Below are positions 3,128 to 26,818 of a stretch of DNA of 27,292 bases, piece by piece. The stretch is from NCBI GenBank assembly GCA_001275005.1, contig JWZX01003150.1, positions 1-27,292 on the forward strand, in the 5' to 3' direction. How positions within the stretch are numbered: the first letter of the stretch is position 1; each line of letters starts with the position of its first letter. Both the position numbers and the translations under genes were made by a program. The DNA comes from Chrysochromulina tobinii (lineage: Eukaryota; Haptophyta; Prymnesiales; Chrysochromulinaceae). The notes below the pieces were generated by a model. It was not told where the DNA came from. It saw only the letters and a list, made by a program, of their open reading frames with translations, and ran no database searches.

Positions 3128-6100
3128 ATGGAAGACACGCCTCTCTCGTCGATCTCATCGATCTCATCGAATTTGATTGATATGGAGGCCATGGGCAACG
3201 TGTGCGTGGCCATACGGTTCCGACCGCCATCGATTTACAATGATGAGGCTGAGGCTGACATTGCCTTCAATGAGACGGCGGGCATGATCGGCGTGACACC
3301 GCCCAAAATGAGACGAAGAGAGATGTTCGCTTTTTCGTCAGTGCACGTGCGAGAGAGCAATGAAGCGATTTTTGAGGCGTACGGCATGCCGCTCTGCAAT
3401 TCAGTTTTGGGCGGCTACAATGGAGCGCTGCTAGCCTACGGCCAGACAGGATCGGGCAAAACATTCACGATGGGTGAGACTGCCCGGATTGGCAGCCTGG
3501 AGGAGGGCATGTCGCATCGTATGGTGCGGCAGCTGTTCTCGGCCATCGCTGCCGACAGTGGACACTCGTACGATATCAGCATGCTCTACGTCCAGGTCTA
3601 CTGCGAGAGGATTTACGACCTGCTTATTGAGAAGCAACCGGAGGTGGTCTCGAACCCCAAATTCGCGGTACCGTCAACGTCGTCACCGGCGCAGCCACGT
3701 TCTCCGCGTCCGCCGCCCGCGCCTGCTCGGCGCGAGCCGGACAGCTTTGGCTCGCCGAGCAAGCGAGAGGACACATCCCTCTCCGTGCGCGAGGACAAGA
3801 AGAACGGCGTCTTTGTGCAAGGGGCGACGACCAACAGGGTCAGCTCAGCTGAGGAGGCGCTTGCTCTAATGGAGCGGGCGTCCGCGCAGCTTGTGTTCGC
3901 CTGGACGAAATTGAATCAGCACTCGTCGCGATCGCACTCGCTCTGCACCCTTCTTGTGAAGCGCACCGAACGCGCTCAGCGTGGCACCGCCGGTGATCAA
4001 GAAGGGGGGCCGCCCAAGTCTGACGTGCACGCAAAGCTCGTGCTGGTGGATTTGGCGGGCTCGGAGGACGTTGGCCGCTCGGGCGTCACGGGGCAGTGCC
4101 TTGCCGAAGCGCAGAAGATCAATCAATCCCTCCTCGCCCTCGGCAACGTGATCCACGCTCTGACCCGCACGGAGGGAGGCAAGAAGATCGGCAGCGCGAC
4201 GACACACGTTCCGTTCCGGTCGTCGGTACTCACACGGCTGCTTTCGGATTCCATAGGGGGCAATTGCCGCACGACGCTCATCTGTTGCTGCTCGCCAGCC
4301 TCGGCCGACGTCTCCGAGACGCTTTCGACGTTGAGATTCGGCTGCCGTGCCAAGCTCGTCCGCTTCGACTCCACACTCAATGCAGCCCTGCCAGCAAACA
4401 TGCTGCTCAGCAACCTCCTCCCGTCGCAGACCGGATACATCAAGTACATGCGCCAAGTCAAGACCGACACGATCACGCAGGCGGAGCTGAACAAGCTCCG
4501 AGACCTCCCGTGGAACTCGACGTGCTTCGATTGCACTGCGCTCGAACCTGCCTGGGTGGCGCTTCCGCATGGCGTGTTCATCTGTGTCGACTGCGCGCAG
4601 ACGCACCGCAACATGGGACAGCACGTGAGCCAGACGAAGGCGATCAACACCAGTACTCATTTATGGTCCCCTGCCGAGCTGGCTGTGGTCCATGAGGTTG
4701 GAAACGCCGTCGCCGCGGTTGCTTACGCTGACTTTGCCCTGCCTCCCAAGCCATCGTGGGCTGCGACACCAGCTGCGAAGATGGCATACTCGCAGGAGAA
4801 GTATGGCCGCGGCTCTCCTGATTTCAAGGCGGCCGCTGAACAGCTGCATGCGCAGCCCGCGCTGTGGACACATCTGGCGCGCGCGGCGGAGGCCCAGATT
4901 GCAGAGGCAAAGGTGAAGGCGATAGCAGAGGATGAGGCATGGGCGGCGCAGGCGCAGGCGAAACCGAAACCGACAATGGCAGTTGCCACACAGGCGGCAG
5001 GGGCGGCAACGGCGGCAACGGCAGAGGCGGGAAGCTGCGAGGAGCAGGAGGCTTTGGCATGCGAAATGGCATTGGCGGCAAAGAGCGAGGCAGAGCAGGA
5101 GGCGGCGGGGGAGCTGGGGGAGGTATCAGATGAAGCGAGGGACGCGACGGCTAGTCGCGCCACCATCCTGCAGCAGCAGCAGCAGCTGACGCCAACGCAG
5201 CAGCCGCAACCACCCCAGCCGTCTCAGGTGCCGCCGTGGCAGAAGCAGCAAACGCATCAGGATGGGGCCCGGGAGGAGGCCGTCCGTGTGACCTTCGCGG
5301 CCGCCGAGCTGAGGGCGGTCTCGGCTTCGGCGCTGGTTGTTGAGGCTCAGCAGGTGGCCGAGGGGCCTGTGACGGTCAAGGCGGCCGAGGCAGCAGAGAC
5401 GGCCAAGGCAGAGGCGGTCGAGGCAGCGAAGGCGGAAGTTGCCAAGGCGGCCGCCGAGGCGGAGGCGATCAAGACTGCCGAAACGAAGGCGGCCACGGCA
5501 GCAGAGACAGCCAAGGCAGAGGCGGTCGAGGCAGCGAAGGCGGAAGTTGCCAAGGCGGCCGAGGCCGAGGCGGCGAATGCGGCGGATGCAGAGGAGGCCA
5601 AGAAGAAAATGTATGAGGATGATGATGACGAGTTTGATCTCTGGGATGCGCCTCTGTCTGCAGCCCCTGCATTGAAGAAGACTGCTTCATTCTCGAAGGC
5701 GGCAGCCGCTGAGAAGGCGGCAGCCGAGGATGCCTTGGTTGCGTCAATGAAGGCTCGTGCGGTAGCGCAGAAGACGGAAGCCAAGAACGCGGAAGCTGAG
5801 ATCGCAGCGGCTTACGCAGCGGCCAAGGCAGCAGAGGCGCAGGCGGCAAAGATGATCGAGGTGGAGGCGGTCGAGGTCGCCCCACTCTCCATCCACCCCC
5901 CAGCTCTCACCACTGCCGCCGCGGAGCAGAAGGAATACGAGGCAATCATACCGAATAAGGCACCTGATCAGTCCATCGTACGTCGACTTGAACCGCAGGA
6001 AGAGGTCGCTCTGTACGCTGTCATGCAGCAGGCCGTGACGGAGGCCGAAGAGGAGGCTGAGGAACAGGTTGAAGCAGAAGCTGAGGATGAGGCCTTGGAG

Positions 6101-7435
6101 ATGGAGGCCAAGGAGGAGGCGTCCGGCAGTGCCAATGCCAGTCCTCTGGGGGACAGTGCCTCAGGCTGCCCCTCGGCTGCGGCCTCCGGCTTCGCCAGCG
6201 AAGCCTCGTCTCCACCTTCATCTTCCACGTTCATCTCCACACACTCGAGGCCCGATGTCTTTCTGAGCCTAGAGGCGGGCCTCGAGGAGCTGGCCAAGGT
6301 TTGCACCAAGGCCGGCACCAAACGTGATTCGATCAGTGTCCTCGCCGAACATCTCAAGCGCAACAACCCGCGGCACAGCCCAGCAGCATCGCAGAAACTT
6401 GCGGACATGCGCGCCGAGGCGGCGCGCCTTGCAGCCGCGAAGGCGGCGATGGCGAGCGGTTCCGCGGGCGGCGGCCGCGAGAAGCGTAGCGAGAAGCCGC
6501 CTCGCCCCGTGCGTCCTCAGCATGTGGCCACGGGCATCGGCTACCCGGATGTGGACTTTGCCTTCACCACACAGACGATGTGCGACGATTCAGCAGCTGC
6601 ACCTCGAACAAAACCGCAGCCGTCTGAAGACGAGCTCCTCGACGAAATGCCATCAGCTAGTACGCTGCTCATGCCGCAACAAGATGACGACCAACACAGC
6701 CTCTCCGAGTTTCTAACGACCACGTGGAAGCTCAACATCTTGGAGAGCCTCCGGAGGGAAAGCACCGCCGAGCCGTCAGCTGGATCGGATGGAGGGGACG
6801 CGGGTAACGACGCGAGCGTCGCTACTTTGGAGACCACGCCCCATGGTGGTCTCCAAAGTCCAAGGTCTCCTAGGTCTCCAAAGACCGCGCCAAGGATGTC
6901 TCCAGCTGCGGCTGAGCCAGATGCTTCTGCAGCTGTGGCTGAGCCAGGGACAGCTGAGCGCCTGCTGCAGCCTTCTGCATCGGGCCGCGAGAAGCCCCCT
7001 CGCCCCGGGCGTCTTAGTGCGCCGACTGATGCGAGCGTTGCCTTCACCTCACACAGTCTAGGTGCTGGCAATCGCTCGCCGCCGCCTCGCGCAGGACGTC
7101 TTTATGCGGCGACAGGCTTCGGCGAGCCGGATGCAGGCACCATCACCCCACGATCCACACCTGGCGCCACATCGTCGGCTGAATCGGCGGTTGTTTTCGA
7201 GACGCCGCTCTGCCATGGGCGTCCATATATGGGCGAGGCGGCAACCGGGTTCGGAGCGGCGCTAGGAGCAGCAGACGCTGCTTCCAAACGCAGCACGCCA
7301 CCTGGCCACGTCGATCTCTTGAAGGCCTTGCTAGAAAACACGGGACAGTTTTTCAAGAAGAGCGGCGACGAGATTGGCAAGGCATTCAGTCCTGACAGTC
7401 CTGGCTGGAGAAAGCCACGTGAATCGTGTCTGTAG
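3128..7435 (+). CDS. Kinesin motor-ArfGAP fusion protein with long low-complexity tail
   Basis: One uninterrupted 1435-codon frame, with start context CAAATGG. Residues about 20-412 are a kinesin motor: P-loop GQTGSGKT (105-112), switch I NQHSSRSH (263-270), switch II DLAGSE (308-313), then KINQSLLALGNVIHAL and TTLICCCSPASADVSETLST, most like kinesin-1-type motors. A Pro/Ser-rich insert interrupts the motor near 175-215. Residues about 452-575 are an ArfGAP domain: zinc finger C466-x2-C469-x16-C486-x2-C489, with the catalytic arginine finger at R494 (THRNMG), and downstream LWSPAELAVV and the E-K-Y-G element. Residues about 580-1000 are Ala/Glu/Lys-rich, probably helical or coiled coil, containing an acidic EFDLWDAP motif. 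The tail carries degenerate PPRPxR...ATGxG repeats. Catalytic residues of both enzymes are present, so an ATP-driven microtubule motor able to stimulate GTP hydrolysis on Arf is inferred. Confidence 0.93.
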   Translation: MEDTPLSSISSISSNLIDMEAMGNVCVAIRFRPPSIYNDEAEADIAFNETAGMIGVTPPKMRRREMFAFSSVHVRESNEAIFEAYGMPLCNSVLGGYNGALLAYGQTGSGKTFTMGETARIGSLEEGMSHRMVRQLFSAIAADSGHSYDISMLYVQVYCERIYDLLIEKQPEVVSNPKFAVPSTSSPAQPRSPRPPPAPARREPDSFGSPSKREDTSLSVREDKKNGVFVQGATTNRVSSAEEALALMERASAQLVFAWTKLNQHSSRSHSLCTLLVKRTERAQRGTAGDQEGGPPKSDVHAKLVLVDLAGSEDVGRSGVTGQCLAEAQKINQSLLALGNVIHALTRTEGGKKIGSATTHVPFRSSVLTRLLSDSIGGNCRTTLICCCSPASADVSETLSTLRFGCRAKLVRFDSTLNAALPANMLLSNLLPSQTGYIKYMRQVKTDTITQAELNKLRDLPWNSTCFDCTALEPAWVALPHGVFICVDCAQTHRNMGQHVSQTKAINTSTHLWSPAELAVVHEVGNAVAAVAYADFALPPKPSWAATPAAKMAYSQEKYGRGSPDFKAAAEQLHAQPALWTHLARAAEAQIAEAKVKAIAEDEAWAAQAQAKPKPTMAVATQAAGAATAATAEAGSCEEQEALACEMALAAKSEAEQEAAGELGEVSDEARDATASRATILQQQQQLTPTQQPQPPQPSQVPPWQKQQTHQDGAREEAVRVTFAAAELRAVSASALVVEAQQVAEGPVTVKAAEAAETAKAEAVEAAKAEVAKAAAEAEAIKTAETKAATAAETAKAEAVEAAKAEVAKAAEAEAANAADAEEAKKKMYEDDDDEFDLWDAPLSAAPALKKTASFSKAAAAEKAAAEDALVASMKARAVAQKTEAKNAEAEIAAAYAAAKAAEAQAAKMIEVEAVEVAPLSIHPPALTTAAAEQKEYEAIIPNKAPDQSIVRRLEPQEEVALYAVMQQAVTEAEEEAEEQVEAEAEDEALEMEAKEEASGSANASPLGDSASGCPSAAASGFASEASSPPSSSTFISTHSRPDVFLSLEAGLEELAKVCTKAGTKRDSISVLAEHLKRNNPRHSPAASQKLADMRAEAARLAAAKAAMASGSAGGGREKRSEKPPRPVRPQHVATGIGYPDVDFAFTTQTMCDDSAAAPRTKPQPSEDELLDEMPSASTLLMPQQDDDQHSLSEFLTTTWKLNILESLRRESTAEPSAGSDGGDAGNDASVATLETTPHGGLQSPRSPRSPKTAPRMSPAAAEPDASAAVAEPGTAERLLQPSASGREKPPRPGRLSAPTDASVAFTSHSLGAGNRSPPPRAGRLYAATGFGEPDAGTITPRSTPGATSSAESAVVFETPLCHGRPYMGEAATGFGAALGAADAASKRSTPPGHVDLLKALLENTGQFFKKSGDEIGKAFSPDSPGWRKPRESCL
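5389..5565 (+). repeat. 108-bp tandem duplication in the kinesin-ArfGAP tail
   Basis: The segment around 5392-5455 recurs at 5500-5563 with about one mismatch, offset exactly 108 bp (36 codons), so the frame is kept. Each copy encodes AETAKAEAVEAAKAEVAKAA. The near-identity points to a recent duplication extending the predicted coiled coil. Confidence 0.85.
6475..7265 (+). repeat. Degenerate C-terminal repeats of the kinesin-ArfGAP protein
   Basis: A protein motif of the form (K)PPRPxR followed by ATGxGxPD or DASVAFT recurs at about 6496-6580, 6985-7060, 7075-7145 and 7210-7260. Examples are EKPPRPVRPQHVATGIG, EKPPRPGRLSAPTDAS, PPPRAGRLYAATGFGEPD and GRPYMGEAATGFG. The repeated unit suggests a multivalent short linear motif; no family was recognised. 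Confidence 0.7.
6824..6859. repeat. Perfect 14-bp inverted repeat inside the coding sequence
   Basis: Arms 6824-6837 (ACTTTGGAGACCAC) and 6846-6859 (GTGGTCTCCAAAGT) are perfect reverse complements with an 8-nt loop. The right arm's GGTCTCC core recurs twice more just downstream, up to about 6893. A stable hairpin could form in the mRNA within the kinesin-ArfGAP tail. Confidence 0.9.
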
Positions 7436-16762: not shown

Positions 16763-16943
16763 CGAAAACTTGGCAACTTAGTTCACATGTTTCCTCCTCT
16801 GTGAAAGCGCTGACTCTTTCCGTCGCAATTTCACAGAGCGTTCCTGCATCGACTTGCCGCGGCAACTTCAAGAGCCGAAACCGACTCTCGCACAGTTCGC
16901 ACTAGGAAATTCCTACCCGCTGTCGGCGGCGGCGCTGAGGTCA

Positions 16944-18383
16944 ATGGGCCGTCCTGGCACGGCGTCGTCCGTGGCAAAGACGGGCACGAGCGCGACGCTG
17001 CAGAGTGTGCAGCGACTCCCGACGCTCGAGAATCTCTCAATCCAGGACGTCGAGCTCAGCGCGGGCGTGGTGGATGACGTGAGCCTCGAGGTGGTGCTCA
17101 ACAAGTCGGGCTGGAAGGAGCCTGCACGTCAGATGCTGCCGGTGCGCTACCTGCGTGCGGGCCTTCAAGACCTCACCTTTCGCGTTCCGCGGCTCGGCCA
17201 GGTGACCATCTCGCTCGACTATGCGCCCGCTGACCGAGGCGGCGCGCGGGAGGAGGCAGAGCGGCGCGGGCGTGAAGCTGCTGCACGTCGGGAGGCGGAA
17301 GAGCGCGCCCGTGCGGCCGCGGCGTCCGAGGCTGAGGAGCGGCGCCTGCGTGCGGAGGAGGCCGCAAAGCAGGCCGAGGAGGATGCCAAGCAAAAACGTG
17401 AGGCGGCTGAGGCGAAGCGACGCGAGGCAGAGCTTGCGGCGCAGGCGGCGGCCAAGGCGGCGGCCGAGGAGGAGGCCCGTCGCAAGGCCGAGGCGGCCAA
17501 GGCGGCGGAAGAGGCGCGCGCGGCGGCCGCCGCGGCCCAGGCGGATGAGGCCAAGGCCAAGGCGGAGGAAGCGCGTGAGGCGGTGCGCAAGAAGGAAGAG
17601 GCGCGTCAGCAGCGACAACGGGAGATTGAGGAGGCTCGACAGGCCGAGGAGGAGATCTTGCGCGAGCAGCAGCGGAAAAAGGAGCTGCGGCTCGAGGCGG
17701 AGAAGAGGGCGGCCGAGATTGAGCGTAACAAGGCCGAGGCGAAGGCGGCCGAGGAGGAGATCTTGCGCGAGCAGCAGCGTAAGAAGCAGGAGCGGATCGA
17801 GGCGGAGAAGAGGGCTGCTGAGGCGGAGGCACGCGTGGCGGCCGAAAAGGCGGAGGAGGAGGCACGGCTGGCGAAGGAGAAGGCGGCGGCTGAGAAGGCG
17901 GCGGCCGAGAAGGCGGCGGCCGAGAAGGCGGCGGCCGAGAAGGCGGCGGCCGAGAAGGCGGCGGCAGAGAAGGCGGCGGCAGAGAAGGCGGCGGCAGAGC
18001 AGGCGGCGGCCGAGCAGGCGGCGGCAGAGAAGGCGGCGGCAGAGAAGGCGGCGGCCGAGCAGGCGGCAGCCGACCAAGCAGCAGCAGACCAGGCAGCAGC
18101 CGACCAGGCAGCAGCCGACCAGGAGCTGCACACGCCCACGATCCCTACCGCGCCTACGACAGTTGCCTACGTGCCTGGCGCGAAGCCGCATCTCGGACTA
18201 CACACGCCCACGACCCCTACCGCACCTACGACAGTTGCCTATGTGCCTGGCGCGAAGCCGCATCTCGGCCTGCACACGCCCACGACCCCTACCGCACCTA
18301 CGGTCGCCGCTGTGCCCGCGAGGCCGCATCTCGGCCTGCACACCCCCACTTCATTGCCAACAGAGCCCAGGGCGTCGCAATAG
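16944..18383 (+). CDS. Coiled-coil protein with AAAEK and 24-residue C-terminal repeats
   Basis: About 479 aa from the first in-frame ATG (16944). The frame stays open upstream to about 16782 without another ATG. The N-terminal 100 residues ([20 protein letters not shown]... [16 protein letters not shown]) look like a small beta-rich domain I do not recognise. Then come about 300 residues of Ala/Glu/Lys/Arg helix with repeated [11 protein letters not shown], ending in about 15 copies of the pentapeptide [15 protein letters not shown]. The C-terminus has three and a half copies of an extended repeat [20 protein letters not shown] plus PHLG. The protein probably forms a long single helix or coiled coil, perhaps structural or cytoskeletal. 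Arg-rich and Leu-rich frames on other strands here are shadows of the repeats. Confidence 0.8.
17876..18122 (+). repeat. 15-bp coding minisatellite ([15 protein letters not shown])
   Basis: About 15 tandem copies of a 15-bp unit GCGGCGGCCGAGAAG, with variants GAGCAG and GACCAG accumulating toward the 3' end. This gradient is typical of repeat expansion by slippage or unequal exchange. Confidence 0.93.
18126..18365 (+). repeat. 72-bp coding tandem repeat
   Basis: Units at 18126-18197 and 18198-18269 (72 bp, 24 codons each) differ by few bases. A shorter third unit (18270-18335, 22 codons) and a partial fourth follow. Each begins LHTPT and ends PHLG. Confidence 0.93.
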
Positions 18384-21014: not shown

Positions 21015-21632
21015 ATGTTGTCGCTGCTCGCCCTGTCTGCTGGTGCGCCCACCCTCGCGCCCAAGGTCACCGTCCTTGCGTGCACCGAAGCCTTCTGAGG
21101 TGGGTGCGCCGACTTCGTCGTCGGTCCGCTGAAGGCGGCCGTCGATGCAGCTGGCGTGCTCGACATCATGAATGTAACCATGGTGCCGTATGGCAACTCG
21201 CGCACAACCGGTGGCAAGACGACATGCCAGCACGGCGAGAACGAGTGTATTGCTGACTCGATCGAGCAGTGCGCGATTGACATCTACCCGGAGTTCACCA
21301 AGCACTACCCGTTCCTCTACTGCATGGAGGGCCACGGCAGCAACATGCTCAAGTACACGGAGGAATGCTCCAAGACGGCCGGGCTCAACTACACGCAGAT
21401 CGAGGCGTGCTCCAACGACGCAGCCCGCGTCGTCGCCCTGCAGGCCAGGTTCGCGGCCATGACGCCGTCCGACCACAAGTACACGCCTTGGATCTTGGTC
21501 AACGGCGTGCTGTCCAAGAGCGACGGCGACAAGCTGCTTGACGAGGTCTGCACGGCGTACACCGGCACGTGGCCCGCTGGCTGCAACACGGTGCTCAGGG
21601 AGACGAACCAGAAATGCTCCGCCGATTGGTAG
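21015..21632 (+). CDS. GILT-family thiol reductase with in-frame UGA, predicted selenoprotein
   Basis: From the ATG at 21015 the frame encodes a signal-like MLSLLALSAGAPTLA and VTVLACTEAF, then TGA at 21096-21098. It continues in the same frame as GGCADFVVGPL...LDIMNVTMVPYGNS to a TAG at 21630-21632. In this family (gamma-interferon-inducible lysosomal thiol reductase) the active-site CxxC stands exactly here (CGGC in human GILT, as I recall it), followed by LNVTLVPYGN. The TGA thus replaces the first catalytic Cys and C31 is the resolving Cys: U28-G-G-C31. The family signature CQHGENECIADSIEQC (71-86) and PWILVNG confirm the call. Length is 205 aa with selenocysteine, normal for GILT. A SECIS-like hairpin lies about 75 nt past the stop. 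GILT reduces disulfides in acidic compartments. Starting at 21156 instead would remove the active site. A nonsense mutation or an assembly error is the alternative. Confidence 0.83.
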
Positions 21633-22255
21633 ACGGTCGCTTCACCTTGGCACGTGCGACGGAGGTGGACGAGAGGGACGAGGCCCGACGGTGACATGGC
21701 CCGGGACGCACCACAAAATGACGGCCGCTTCGCTCACCTACCTTTGGCGAGGCGGCTCGAGCTTTAATGCTGGCGCTGATCGGGCATTCTCGGCGGGCTC
21801 CATCTCGGCGGGCTCCATCCTTCCGCCGCCGCCGAGGTAAGTACATTCGTCTGTAGGGGCCTACCGATGGAACGCATGATCGCCTTCCGAAGTTCAATCG
21901 TAACCATGATCGTAACACCTCTGACTGAGATACTGCGTTGAGTACAGCCGTAACACAGTTTTGGTTGCGGGGAGGGCGGGCAGATCCGCACCGGACGCAC
22001 CTCTCATATGGTTTGATACAAGGTTACACACTCCACTTACGGCTTGTACATGTACTGATCTTGCAATGCCGCTTGTCCGGTCCGGTTGCACACTGTGCGG
22101 ACGCGCACGTCGTTGCGACACTCTTGAGGGATTGTAACAGGGATCGATCGGGTCGGGTAGTTGCGCAACGCAAGGGGTCGTTGCTGCGACAACGTTCGAC
22201 GCCAGGATTCAACGTCCGGGAATCGTGGAGTTGACCACGCAGACGAGACACAGAC
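21633..22255. other. 3' UTR/intergenic region between the GILT-like and tweety genes
   Basis: This 623-bp region contains the SECIS candidate near its left end. The remainder has no gene-like frame. It includes a 15-bp repeat GGCGGGCTCCATCTC/GGCGGGCTCCATCCT at about 21797-21826. The flanking genes are convergent. Confidence 0.55.
21708..21776 (+). promoter_or_regulatory. Candidate SECIS element in the 3' UTR of the GILT-like gene
   Basis: The core ATGA is at 21718-21721 and its partner GA at 21759-21760, giving the tandem sheared G-A pairs of the SECIS quartet. Between them is an 11-bp helix, 21723-21733 with 21747-21757 (GGCCGCTTCGC with GCGAGGCGGCT, two G-U pairs), closed by a 13-nt apical loop. 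Below the quartet, AAA (21715-21717) can pair with TTT (21763-21765), then an internal loop, then GCACCA (21708-21713) with TGGCGC (21771-21776), one mismatch. The apical loop lacks the usual AA but has CC, as in the minority CC-type elements, a few nt further from the quartet than usual. Assessed by eye only. Confidence 0.6.
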
Positions 22256-24545: not shown

Positions 24546-26818
24546 CTATATGGAGCATCGCCTCGCGGGCGGCCCGCCGCGTGCGGTCCAATGCGCGACC
24601 ATCGTCGCGTCTAGCTCGGCGTGCTCCTCCACCTTGCGCGTCGGCTTGGGGCGCATGTCGACCACAGCGAGCCGGTAACAGAATCGCCGCCTGTCGGCGA
24701 GCACAACCACGCCGGGGGCGAGCAGATCGTCGACAGGCTGCGCATGCGCGCCACTACCCGCCGCCGCGTCTGTCCCTCGCGCCTCCCGCACACGTTCGAT
24801 CGCGAGCATCAAACTCACGTCAGAGGCCGCGAGGCCGAGGAGCCATTCCGACACGAGCGTGACACACTCGTCCAGGCTGCCCTCGGCGTCGTGCTGAGCA
24901 CTTGCATGCGTGAGCGTGACACACTCGTCCAGGCTGCCTTCGGCGTCGTGCTGAGCACTTGCATGCGTGAGCGTGACACACTCGTCCAGGCTGCCTTTGG
25001 CGTCGTTTTGAGCACTTGCATGCGTGTCCTCGCCCCCATCGACGCCGTGTTGAGCACTTGCATGCGTGTCATCGACGCCATGTTGAGCACTTGCATGCGT
25101 CGAGATCCCCTCGACGTGCACTACCGCCGCCACCCCCGCCACCCCCGCGACATCCTCCGCCTCCACCCCCGCTACATTCTCCGCCTCCACCGCCGCTGGT
25201 GCCGCCAGCAGCGCGTCCACACGCATGCATGTGCTCGACACGGCGCCGTGTCGTGCCGCCAGCAGCTCGATGAGTGCCGCGGCGCCGCCCGCGAGCCTCA
25301 GCGCGCGCGCATGCAGCCGTGCCGCGCGCGCGCTGCCCACCGCAGCGCGTGCTTGCGCACTCTTGAGCCGTTCGAAAAGCGAGCACTCTTGGCGAAGGAT
25401 GGCGCACCTGAGGACGAGGGTGATGGCGCCGTTGTGAGCGCTTGCATGCGTGTGGGCGTGCCATGGCGCCGTTGTGAGCGCTTGCATGCGGATGGGCGTG
25501 CCATGGCGCCGTTGTGAGCACTTGCGTGCTAGGCAGGGGGGCTCAATCGACACTCTTGATGAAGGATGGCGCGCACACAATCTCGACGACGAGATTGAGG
25601 TCCTCATCCGCGCCCGCCACGGCGCCCGACGCCCCATCCGCCGCCACATCCGCCGCCAACGCCGCCGCGTCCACCGCATCCGCCGCCGCCTCGGCCACTT
25701 CCTCGTCCCTTGCCGCGCCGTCCACTTCCTCGTTGAGAGCCGCGCCGTCCGCTGTCGCCTCGTCCTCGCCACAGCGCTCGCCACAGCGCCCATCACAGCG
25801 CCCAGCACAACGCCCATCACAGCGCCCATCACCGCGCCCATCACCGCGCTCGGCACAGCGCTCGCCAGCGCAGCCGAGCGGCGCGGCACGTGCTCGGCAC
25901 GGCGCTCGCCACGCGCGGCGCAGCAGCGTGCGCAGCGCACGCAGCGCGCCACGCTCGCCGCCCGCCGCGCCCCCCGAAGACGAGCCGTCCAGTACGGCCC
26001 TCAAAGACCTTCAGATTGTTACGCGGCCGCCGCAGCAGAGCCCGCAGCGCGCGTTGGCCGCGCGCGCCGTCGTGAGCGACCGCGTACAGGTCGAGTGGGC
26101 AGAACCGTTGGGCGCCGTCGTGGGCGTGGGCGCCGTCGTGGGCGTCCTCGCGCTCTTCCGCAGCGCTCGCTGAGAGGCCCGCCGTGCGCGCTGTCTTGAG
26201 CGCCTTGAGCTGCTGGTACAGGCAGAAGCGGCAGCGGCCGGGTGCAAAGGTCGCCAACGGCGCACCCTGGGGCACCACGCAATCAAGGGAGGTCATCAAT
26301 GAGGTCATCAGGGTCATCGAGGGCAGTCAAGGCATTCGTACCTGAGGCAGTACGCCCGCCTTGGGCTTCAGCTCGATGCACACGCCGCCGCGGCTGTCGC
26401 AGCCCGCCGCCAAGCGCATAAAGTCTCGCTCGATCCACGCTGCGTGCTGGCCAGAAGAAGGCGACGACGGCAACGGCTTTCCCGGAGCTGCCTCGGCCAC
26501 CGCCGCCTCCATGGCCGCGTGCACCGCGCGAGCCACAAAGCGAGCAGGCGGTACACCGTGTCGTGCCGCATCAGAGAGAGCGCAGGCGAGCGACGATTCA
26601 AGTGGCACCGCACAGATCGGCTCGGCAGCGTACTCTTGGCCGAGTGCTTGGACCAGCGCGGGCAGGGGAGCCACTGACGCAGCTCGAGCTGCAACAACCG
26701 CGTGGCTCAGCTTCAGCACGCATCCAGACAATCGTGGGTCAGAGCCGTTGTATCGGTAGACCGCGTGCTCGGTGCCGCAACCCACCAGAAGAGGCGCGGA
26801 CGACTCGGGTCCTTCCAT
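24546..26818 (-). CDS. Inositol-pentakisphosphate 2-kinase (IPK1-like), multi-exon
   Basis: IPK1 phosphorylates the 2-position of inositol pentakisphosphate to make phytate. Exon 1 (26818-26342) starts MEGPESSAPLLVGCGTEHAV, with GSDPRLSGCVLKLS as the N-lobe and the hallmark GGVCIELKPKAGVLPQ. Exon 2 (from 26266) has RCRFCLYQQLKALK, QRFCPLDLYAV and PRNNLKVFEGRTGRLVFGG, matching the family's RFCMHQ.LK, PLDL and NNL..F blocks. A further exon in another frame ends ADEDLNLVVEIV at 25577. The last exon (25407-24546) has CAILRQECSLFERLKSAQ and the C-terminal LGLAASDVSLMLAI and RRRFCYRLAVVDMRPKPTRK, matching the family's end. Between these lies a repeat insert of THASAQH... units. The junctions after FGG (about 25760-25970) could not be resolved. 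A start at 26932 is possible but less family-like. All exons are open, so the gene may be functional. Confidence 0.83.
24851..25102. repeat. Exonic minisatellite of IPK1, 57-bp units plus shorter variants
   Basis: Three 57-bp units (GAGCGTGACACACTCGTCCA at 24855, 24912 and 24969) are followed by 42-bp and 33-bp derivatives. All end in TGAGCACTTGCATGCGT. Every unit length is a multiple of three, so the minus-strand frame is kept (19, 14 and 11 residues, each starting THASAQ). Confidence 0.93.
25408..25576 (-). other. Predicted IPK1 intron containing a minisatellite (169 nt)
   Basis: Minus-strand donor ATTGT|GTGCGCG (starts at 25576) and acceptor CGTCCTCAG|GTGCGC (ends at 25408). Phase 2 is conserved, giving ...LVVEIV-CAILRQECS.... 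The intron's first bases copy the start of the next exon. Confidence 0.65.
25425..25530. repeat. 40-bp intronic minisatellite
   Basis: The unit beginning GGCGCCGTTGTGAGCGCTTG repeats with period exactly 40 bp (GTTGTGAGC at 25431, 25471 and 25511), about 2.6 copies. It lies inside the predicted IPK1 intron. Confidence 0.93.
25786..25862. repeat. 12-bp tandem repeats within the IPK1 gene
   Basis: On the minus strand a GTGATGGGCGCT-like 12-bp unit repeats about six times with variants. It sits between the NNLKVF exon and the next in-frame IPK1 block, so it is probably intronic. Confidence 0.75.
26267..26341 (-). other. Predicted IPK1 intron 1 (75 nt)
   Basis: Minus-strand donor CCTCAG|GTACGA (starts at 26341) and acceptor GTGCCCCAG|GGT (ends at 26267). 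Both flanking exons are in phase 0, joining ...KAGVLPQ to GAPLATFAPG.... Confidence 0.85.

Follow-up and report, generated by a model that had tools for sequence, protein, structure and literature searches.

An in-frame UGA in place of the first active-site Cys of a haptophyte GILT, very probably read as selenocysteine

The GILT gene in the window and its two paralogues

The window, i.e., the whole stretch of 27,292 bases that was analysed, is a complete contig (C1991) of an assembly of 53.15 Mb in 2253 contigs. On its forward strand lies a gene of the GILT family of thiol reductases, and a TGA is the sole interruption among the 205 codons of its translated frame (Table 1). A profile search with Pfam GILT (PF03227) gave the translated protein 77.3 bits, with a cut-off of 22.4, over residues 23–120 in one stretch, covering profile positions 5–105 of 107. 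This match opens upstream of the TGA and extends beyond it, and past the TGA the frame remains open and GILT-like for 177 codons, in agreement with an initial annotation of this DNA, which had described the frame and the family blocks as continuous across a single TGA.

The only solved structure related by sequence to the window protein at E ≤ 0.001 is that of human GILT (PDB 6nwx, E = 6.6e-19), an active-site Cys of which aligns opposite the window TGA, and the window active site therefore reads U-G-G-C. The TGA thus falls exactly on the first active-site Cys, where the initial annotation had put it. Human GILT shares with the window protein the family and the conserved pattern and spacing of cysteines; however, its active site is a CxxC with Cys, whereas that of the window protein is a UxxC, such that the CxxC of the family is found here only as a Sec variant (UGGC) with the second Cys kept. 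From the GILT signature, which we take to be CQHGxxECxxNxxExC, the window protein departs once (Asp for Asn). It had also been foreseen that standard gene calling would truncate the protein, and the mechanically called ORF indeed opens at a GTG downstream of the TGA, exactly where expected.

Table 1. Coordinates of the proposed Sec-GILT gene and of its candidate SECIS element in the window
Feature	Position	Strand	Details and basis
Proposed Sec-GILT coding sequence	21015..21632	+	ATG at 21015; 205 aa if the TGA is read as Sec; TAG stop at 21630-21632
Short hydrophobic N-terminus, possible secretory signal	21015..21062	+	Sequence; both paralogues also have short hydrophobic starts
Proposed Sec codon (TGA) for residue 28, which opens the UxxC	21096..21098	+	Alignments to paralogues, relatives and human GILT
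TGC encoding Cys31, the second active-site residue (UGGC)	21105..21107	+	Sequence, alignment
GILT signature CQHGENECIADSIEQC, Asp replacing the presumed Asn	21225..21272	+	Sequence, alignment
Truncated ORF from mechanical calling, 158 aa, GTG start	21156..21632	+	ORF list; catalogue protein P0001 begins at the same residue
3′ structure proposed as SECIS, lower helix GCCCGG/UCGGGC	21699..21786	+	Fold
Core of the SECIS-like hairpin	21718..21760	+	ATGA at 21718-21721, helix of about 11 bp, loop with CC, GA at 21759-21760

A six-frame search of the assembly with the GILT profile returned four matches, which correspond to three genes, each with a TGA as the first active-site codon, giving UGGC in the window gene, UPGC in a paralogue on contig C1362 and UPPC in another on contig C1321. 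Identity to the window protein is 36% for the C1362 paralogue and 34% for the C1321 one. The C1362 gene (L010 1210–2212) appears to contain an intron of 70 nt, which lies downstream of the TGA site, and the C1321 gene (L011 1927–2619) is a single open frame save for its TGA. No Cys-type GILT was found in the same six-frame search, which a heavily intron-split gene could escape.

We note two further features of the paralogues. The C1362 protein ends in a hydrophobic segment followed by basic residues and is apparently membrane-anchored, and the C1321 protein no longer carries the cysteines that belong to CQHG and EC in the family signature.

Catalogue relatives, selenocysteine machinery and control selenoproteins

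A search of the protein catalogue with the window protein returned 19 proteins. One of these, P0019, corresponds to the ORF upstream of the TGA and has its exact end there; it is catalogued from four contigs, one of which is possibly the window itself, and was excluded from the counts of relatives. Of the remaining 18, 13 open 7–76 residues past the Sec position and five cross it. In a second search with the C1362 protein, among the best 8000 candidates by shared words, which were the ones scored, all 14 relatives begin 2–29 residues past the position. Pooled, 27/32 relatives begin 2–76 residues beyond the site, so that automatic annotation hides Sec-GILT by calling them without the first active-site residue, and 5/32 cross it. 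All five crossing relatives carry Cys at the site in the alignment (ALCHGC, SYCPDC, LCSAC, SKCPYC and ECPAC); homologues of this kind, with Cys opposite the TGA, were what the initial annotation had suggested searching for. Judging by the start positions of their calls alone, the truncated relatives would carry a TGA at the site; two of them, P0140, the start of which falls within a putative intron, and P0016, which starts far downstream, say little in this respect. Among GILTs assigned to a named organism, that of Triparma retinervis is nearest (41%), and a search of viral contigs with the window protein as single query found no relative.

These data bear on two ways in which the TGA could be something other than a Sec codon. 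If the TGA were a nonsense mutation, the window gene would be a pseudogene or a prematurely terminated allele, which would be in keeping with a frame broken by a single stop codon and with a hairpin that is not canonical (see below). However, the same codon is also TGA in the two other GILT genes, with their 36% and 34% identity, the frame downstream of it is still open and family-like, and the same cut-off recurs in most of the catalogue relatives, all of which makes a nonsense mutation very unlikely. The TGA could also lie in an intron or stem from an assembly error. Introns do occur in this genome, including the putative one of the C1362 paralogue, but the latter is located downstream of the site. 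Moreover, alignments to GILT run through the site from one flank to the other with no gap there, and three contigs have the TGA at this position. The ORF ending exactly at the TGA (P0019) is likewise known from several contigs, and P0143, another relative beginning past the site, is also present in a transcript collection (MMETSP), so that an intron is unlikely as the cause of its late start. We consider an intron or an assembly error extremely improbable.

The genome was also examined for the machinery of Sec synthesis and insertion, the absence of which had been named in the initial annotation as evidence against a Sec reading. A tRNA-Sec match of 70.7 bits lies above the gathering score (four weaker matches lie below it) and is identified by ARAGORN as tRNA-Sec with the anticodon TCA. 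SepSecS (417.5 bits; 515.2 bits with TIGR03531) and SPS (292.8 bits) are present, and the SepSecS is 88% identical to that of Chrysochromulina tobinii and 74% identical to that of Prymnesium parvum, among the best candidates. This suggests a prymnesiophyte haptophyte as the source, rather than Aureococcus, which had also been considered; since the SepSecS is encoded in this assembly but on a different contig from the window, the placement of the window is indirect, and the assembly may be a mixture. The machinery is thus found in part, whereas PSTK gave only a partial match (52 bits vs. a cut-off of 382) and eEFSec was not recognised, since all eight of the 16 selB rows that had loci and were tested are other GTPases. 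These eight are EF-Tu, IF-2, TypA (two), LepA, eIF2-gamma, eIF5B and an EFL1/EF2-like factor; the best selB match was rejected as an eEFSec candidate, being EF-Tu. Two Pfam eEFSec domains found no match in the genome and were equally silent on control sequences, so that their silence does not demonstrate a lack of eEFSec.

Standard selenoprotein families served as controls. An in-match TGA occurs in 9/13 rows of GPx, 6/6 of Rdx (SelW/SelT) and 5/5 of SelM/Sep15, and 19 of these 20 matches had loci and were examined, two of the loci (L034 and L035) being near-identical copies. Each of the 19 genes has a single in-match TGA, at the Sec site. The motif is ASxUG in seven of the eight GPx genes and ACEUG in the remaining one, and it is CxxU in all 11 other control genes; we take the ASxUG-type (GPx) and CxxU (SelW/SelT, SelM/Sep15) positions to be the known Sec sites of those families. 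The first in-frame stop past the match is a TGA in 8/19 control genes, some of which an intron could explain.

A genome-wide reassignment that made TGA an ordinary codon for Cys or Trp would allow the window frame to be read through, with TGA as Cys. However, reassignment sits poorly with control genes that all hold a single in-match TGA at a known Sec site, with TGA as the first in-frame stop in several of them (introns aside), and with a tRNA-Sec bearing the anticodon TCA, and we regard its probability as practically negligible.

The window gene is thus very probably a secreted or lysosome-type GILT thiol reductase in which UGA codon 28 is decoded as Sec, as the initial annotation had proposed. 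Three lines of evidence lead us to this reading. First, a TGA occupies the site in all three GILT genes. Second, the calls of the relatives begin beyond this codon, or else they cross it and have Cys there. Third, the genome contains tRNA-Sec, SepSecS, SPS and many standard selenoprotein genes.

The 3′ hairpin and SECIS candidates

The ATGA of the hairpin begins 86 nt past the TAG stop of the window gene. The elements on which the initial annotation had relied, i.e., the ATGA/GA pair, the helix of about 11 bp and the lower helix, do exist; however, the loop has CC where AA is usual and there is no third helix, making the hairpin the weakest of the signals put forward. In mammals, SECIS elements are known in which CC replaces AA. 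In unconstrained folds, the G of the GA pairs with the C after the ATGA, and the quartet is not drawn. The fold of 21699–21786 has a z-score of −4.09 (0/200 shuffles as good), that of 21680–21790 a z-score of −2.82 (2/200) and that of 21695–21775 a z-score of −1.84 (8/200), the scores varying with the stretch and the stretches having been picked after the fact.

The frequency of such hairpins was assessed by scanning both strands of 12 sequences, the window included (142,784 nt), for NTGA, a helix and GA. A site was called canonical if it had ATGA or GTGA, an unpaired AA, a core of 38–56 nt and an energy of −15 kcal/mol or lower. There are three canonical sites in this background vs. 13/19 control genes with one at most 500 nt from the first stop, a contrast that is descriptive, since the control genes had been inspected before the thresholds were fixed. 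ATGA hairpins at −21.9 or lower number 11 in the same background, which corresponds to a chance of roughly 4% of finding one within 500 nt. By loose criteria, such hairpin starts number 50 across both strands of the window.

A canonical element (L010:2322) with GTGA, ACAA and a third helix lies 110 nt past the stop of the C1362 GILT gene, and the C1321 gene has a similar layout (L011:2718), with UAGA where AA is usual, 99 nt past its stop. The extended folds, on stretches likewise picked after the fact, have z-scores of −2.38 (3/200) for C1362 and −2.44 (4/200) for C1321. We also observed, in the 3′ regions of the SelT-like pair L034/L035, a SECIS candidate with GAGA where AA is usual, rather like the UAGA of C1321. 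Given this pair and the C1321 gene, the genome may use SECIS elements without the AA.

The Rfam model SECIS_1 found no match in the window gene region or anywhere else in the genome, and it also misses the canonical-looking elements that our scan identified. When 10 of 14 listed SECIS candidates of the genome were aligned, they were in register only at the ATGA. The window hairpin is likely the SECIS of the GILT gene, and on its own it is modest evidence for Sec.

Proposed mechanism and known Sec-GILTs

For actual Sec insertion and for the compartment, catalysis and substrates of the window protein, we infer a scheme modelled on the family. Sec-tRNA, together with the SECIS hairpin in the 3′ UTR, would recode the UGA at codon 28. 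By analogy with ordinary GILT, the selenolate of Sec28 would attack a substrate disulfide, and Cys31 would then resolve the mixed selenenylsulfide, as happens with the Cys/Cys pair of the ordinary enzyme. Animal GILT acts in acid compartments (lysosomes) and has a role in antigen processing, which need not carry over to the algal protein. The pKa of a selenol is lower than that of a thiol, and a selenol stays ionised at an acid pH at which a Cys thiol does not. Tentatively, and with more doubt than confidence, we suggest that the whole detected GILT set of three genes was converted to Sec, that Sec-GILT is common in plankton and hidden by truncated calls, and that Sec makes a better reductase for the acid digestive vacuole of phagotrophic algae because the selenol would remain ionised there, whereas a Cys thiol would not.

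The initial annotation had left open whether a Sec-containing GILT was already described. It was: a Global Ocean Sampling survey of 2008 introduced GILT as a new family of eukaryotic selenoproteins, with three sequences and a SECIS predicted for one of them, and stated that no organisms with Sec-GILT were known (PMC2398784). The Global Ocean Sampling protein is, like the window protein, a eukaryotic GILT with Sec, but it comes from marine metagenome reads, whereas the three genes described here sit in one assembly that also encodes part of the machinery. A survey of algal selenoproteomes from 2020 counts GILT as one of the Sec families with the narrowest distribution (PMC7539508). In Aureococcus anophagefferens, GILT is named in a figure legend of a 2018 study, among 35 selenoproteins changing under virus infection (PMC5917014). 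The Aureococcus protein is likewise described as an algal selenoprotein, but Aureococcus is a pelagophyte, whereas the present assembly appears to be that of a haptophyte. A paper found for Chrysochromulina and selenoproteins makes no mention of GILT, and the present trio of GILT genes may be unreported. A rarely reported Sec-GILT family hereby gains a genomic setting with three genes.

Elsewhere in the window, three other open frames drew our attention. The forward strand carries, at 3128–7435, an open frame of 1435 aa with a kinesin motor (residues 59–410) followed by an ArfGAP domain (452–558), a pairing that seemed unusual to us. A low-complexity frame rich in EKAAA repeats lies at 16854–18383, also on the forward strand, and tandem repeats of RERDTLVQAAFGVVLSTCM are found in a mechanically called ORF at 24621–25517.
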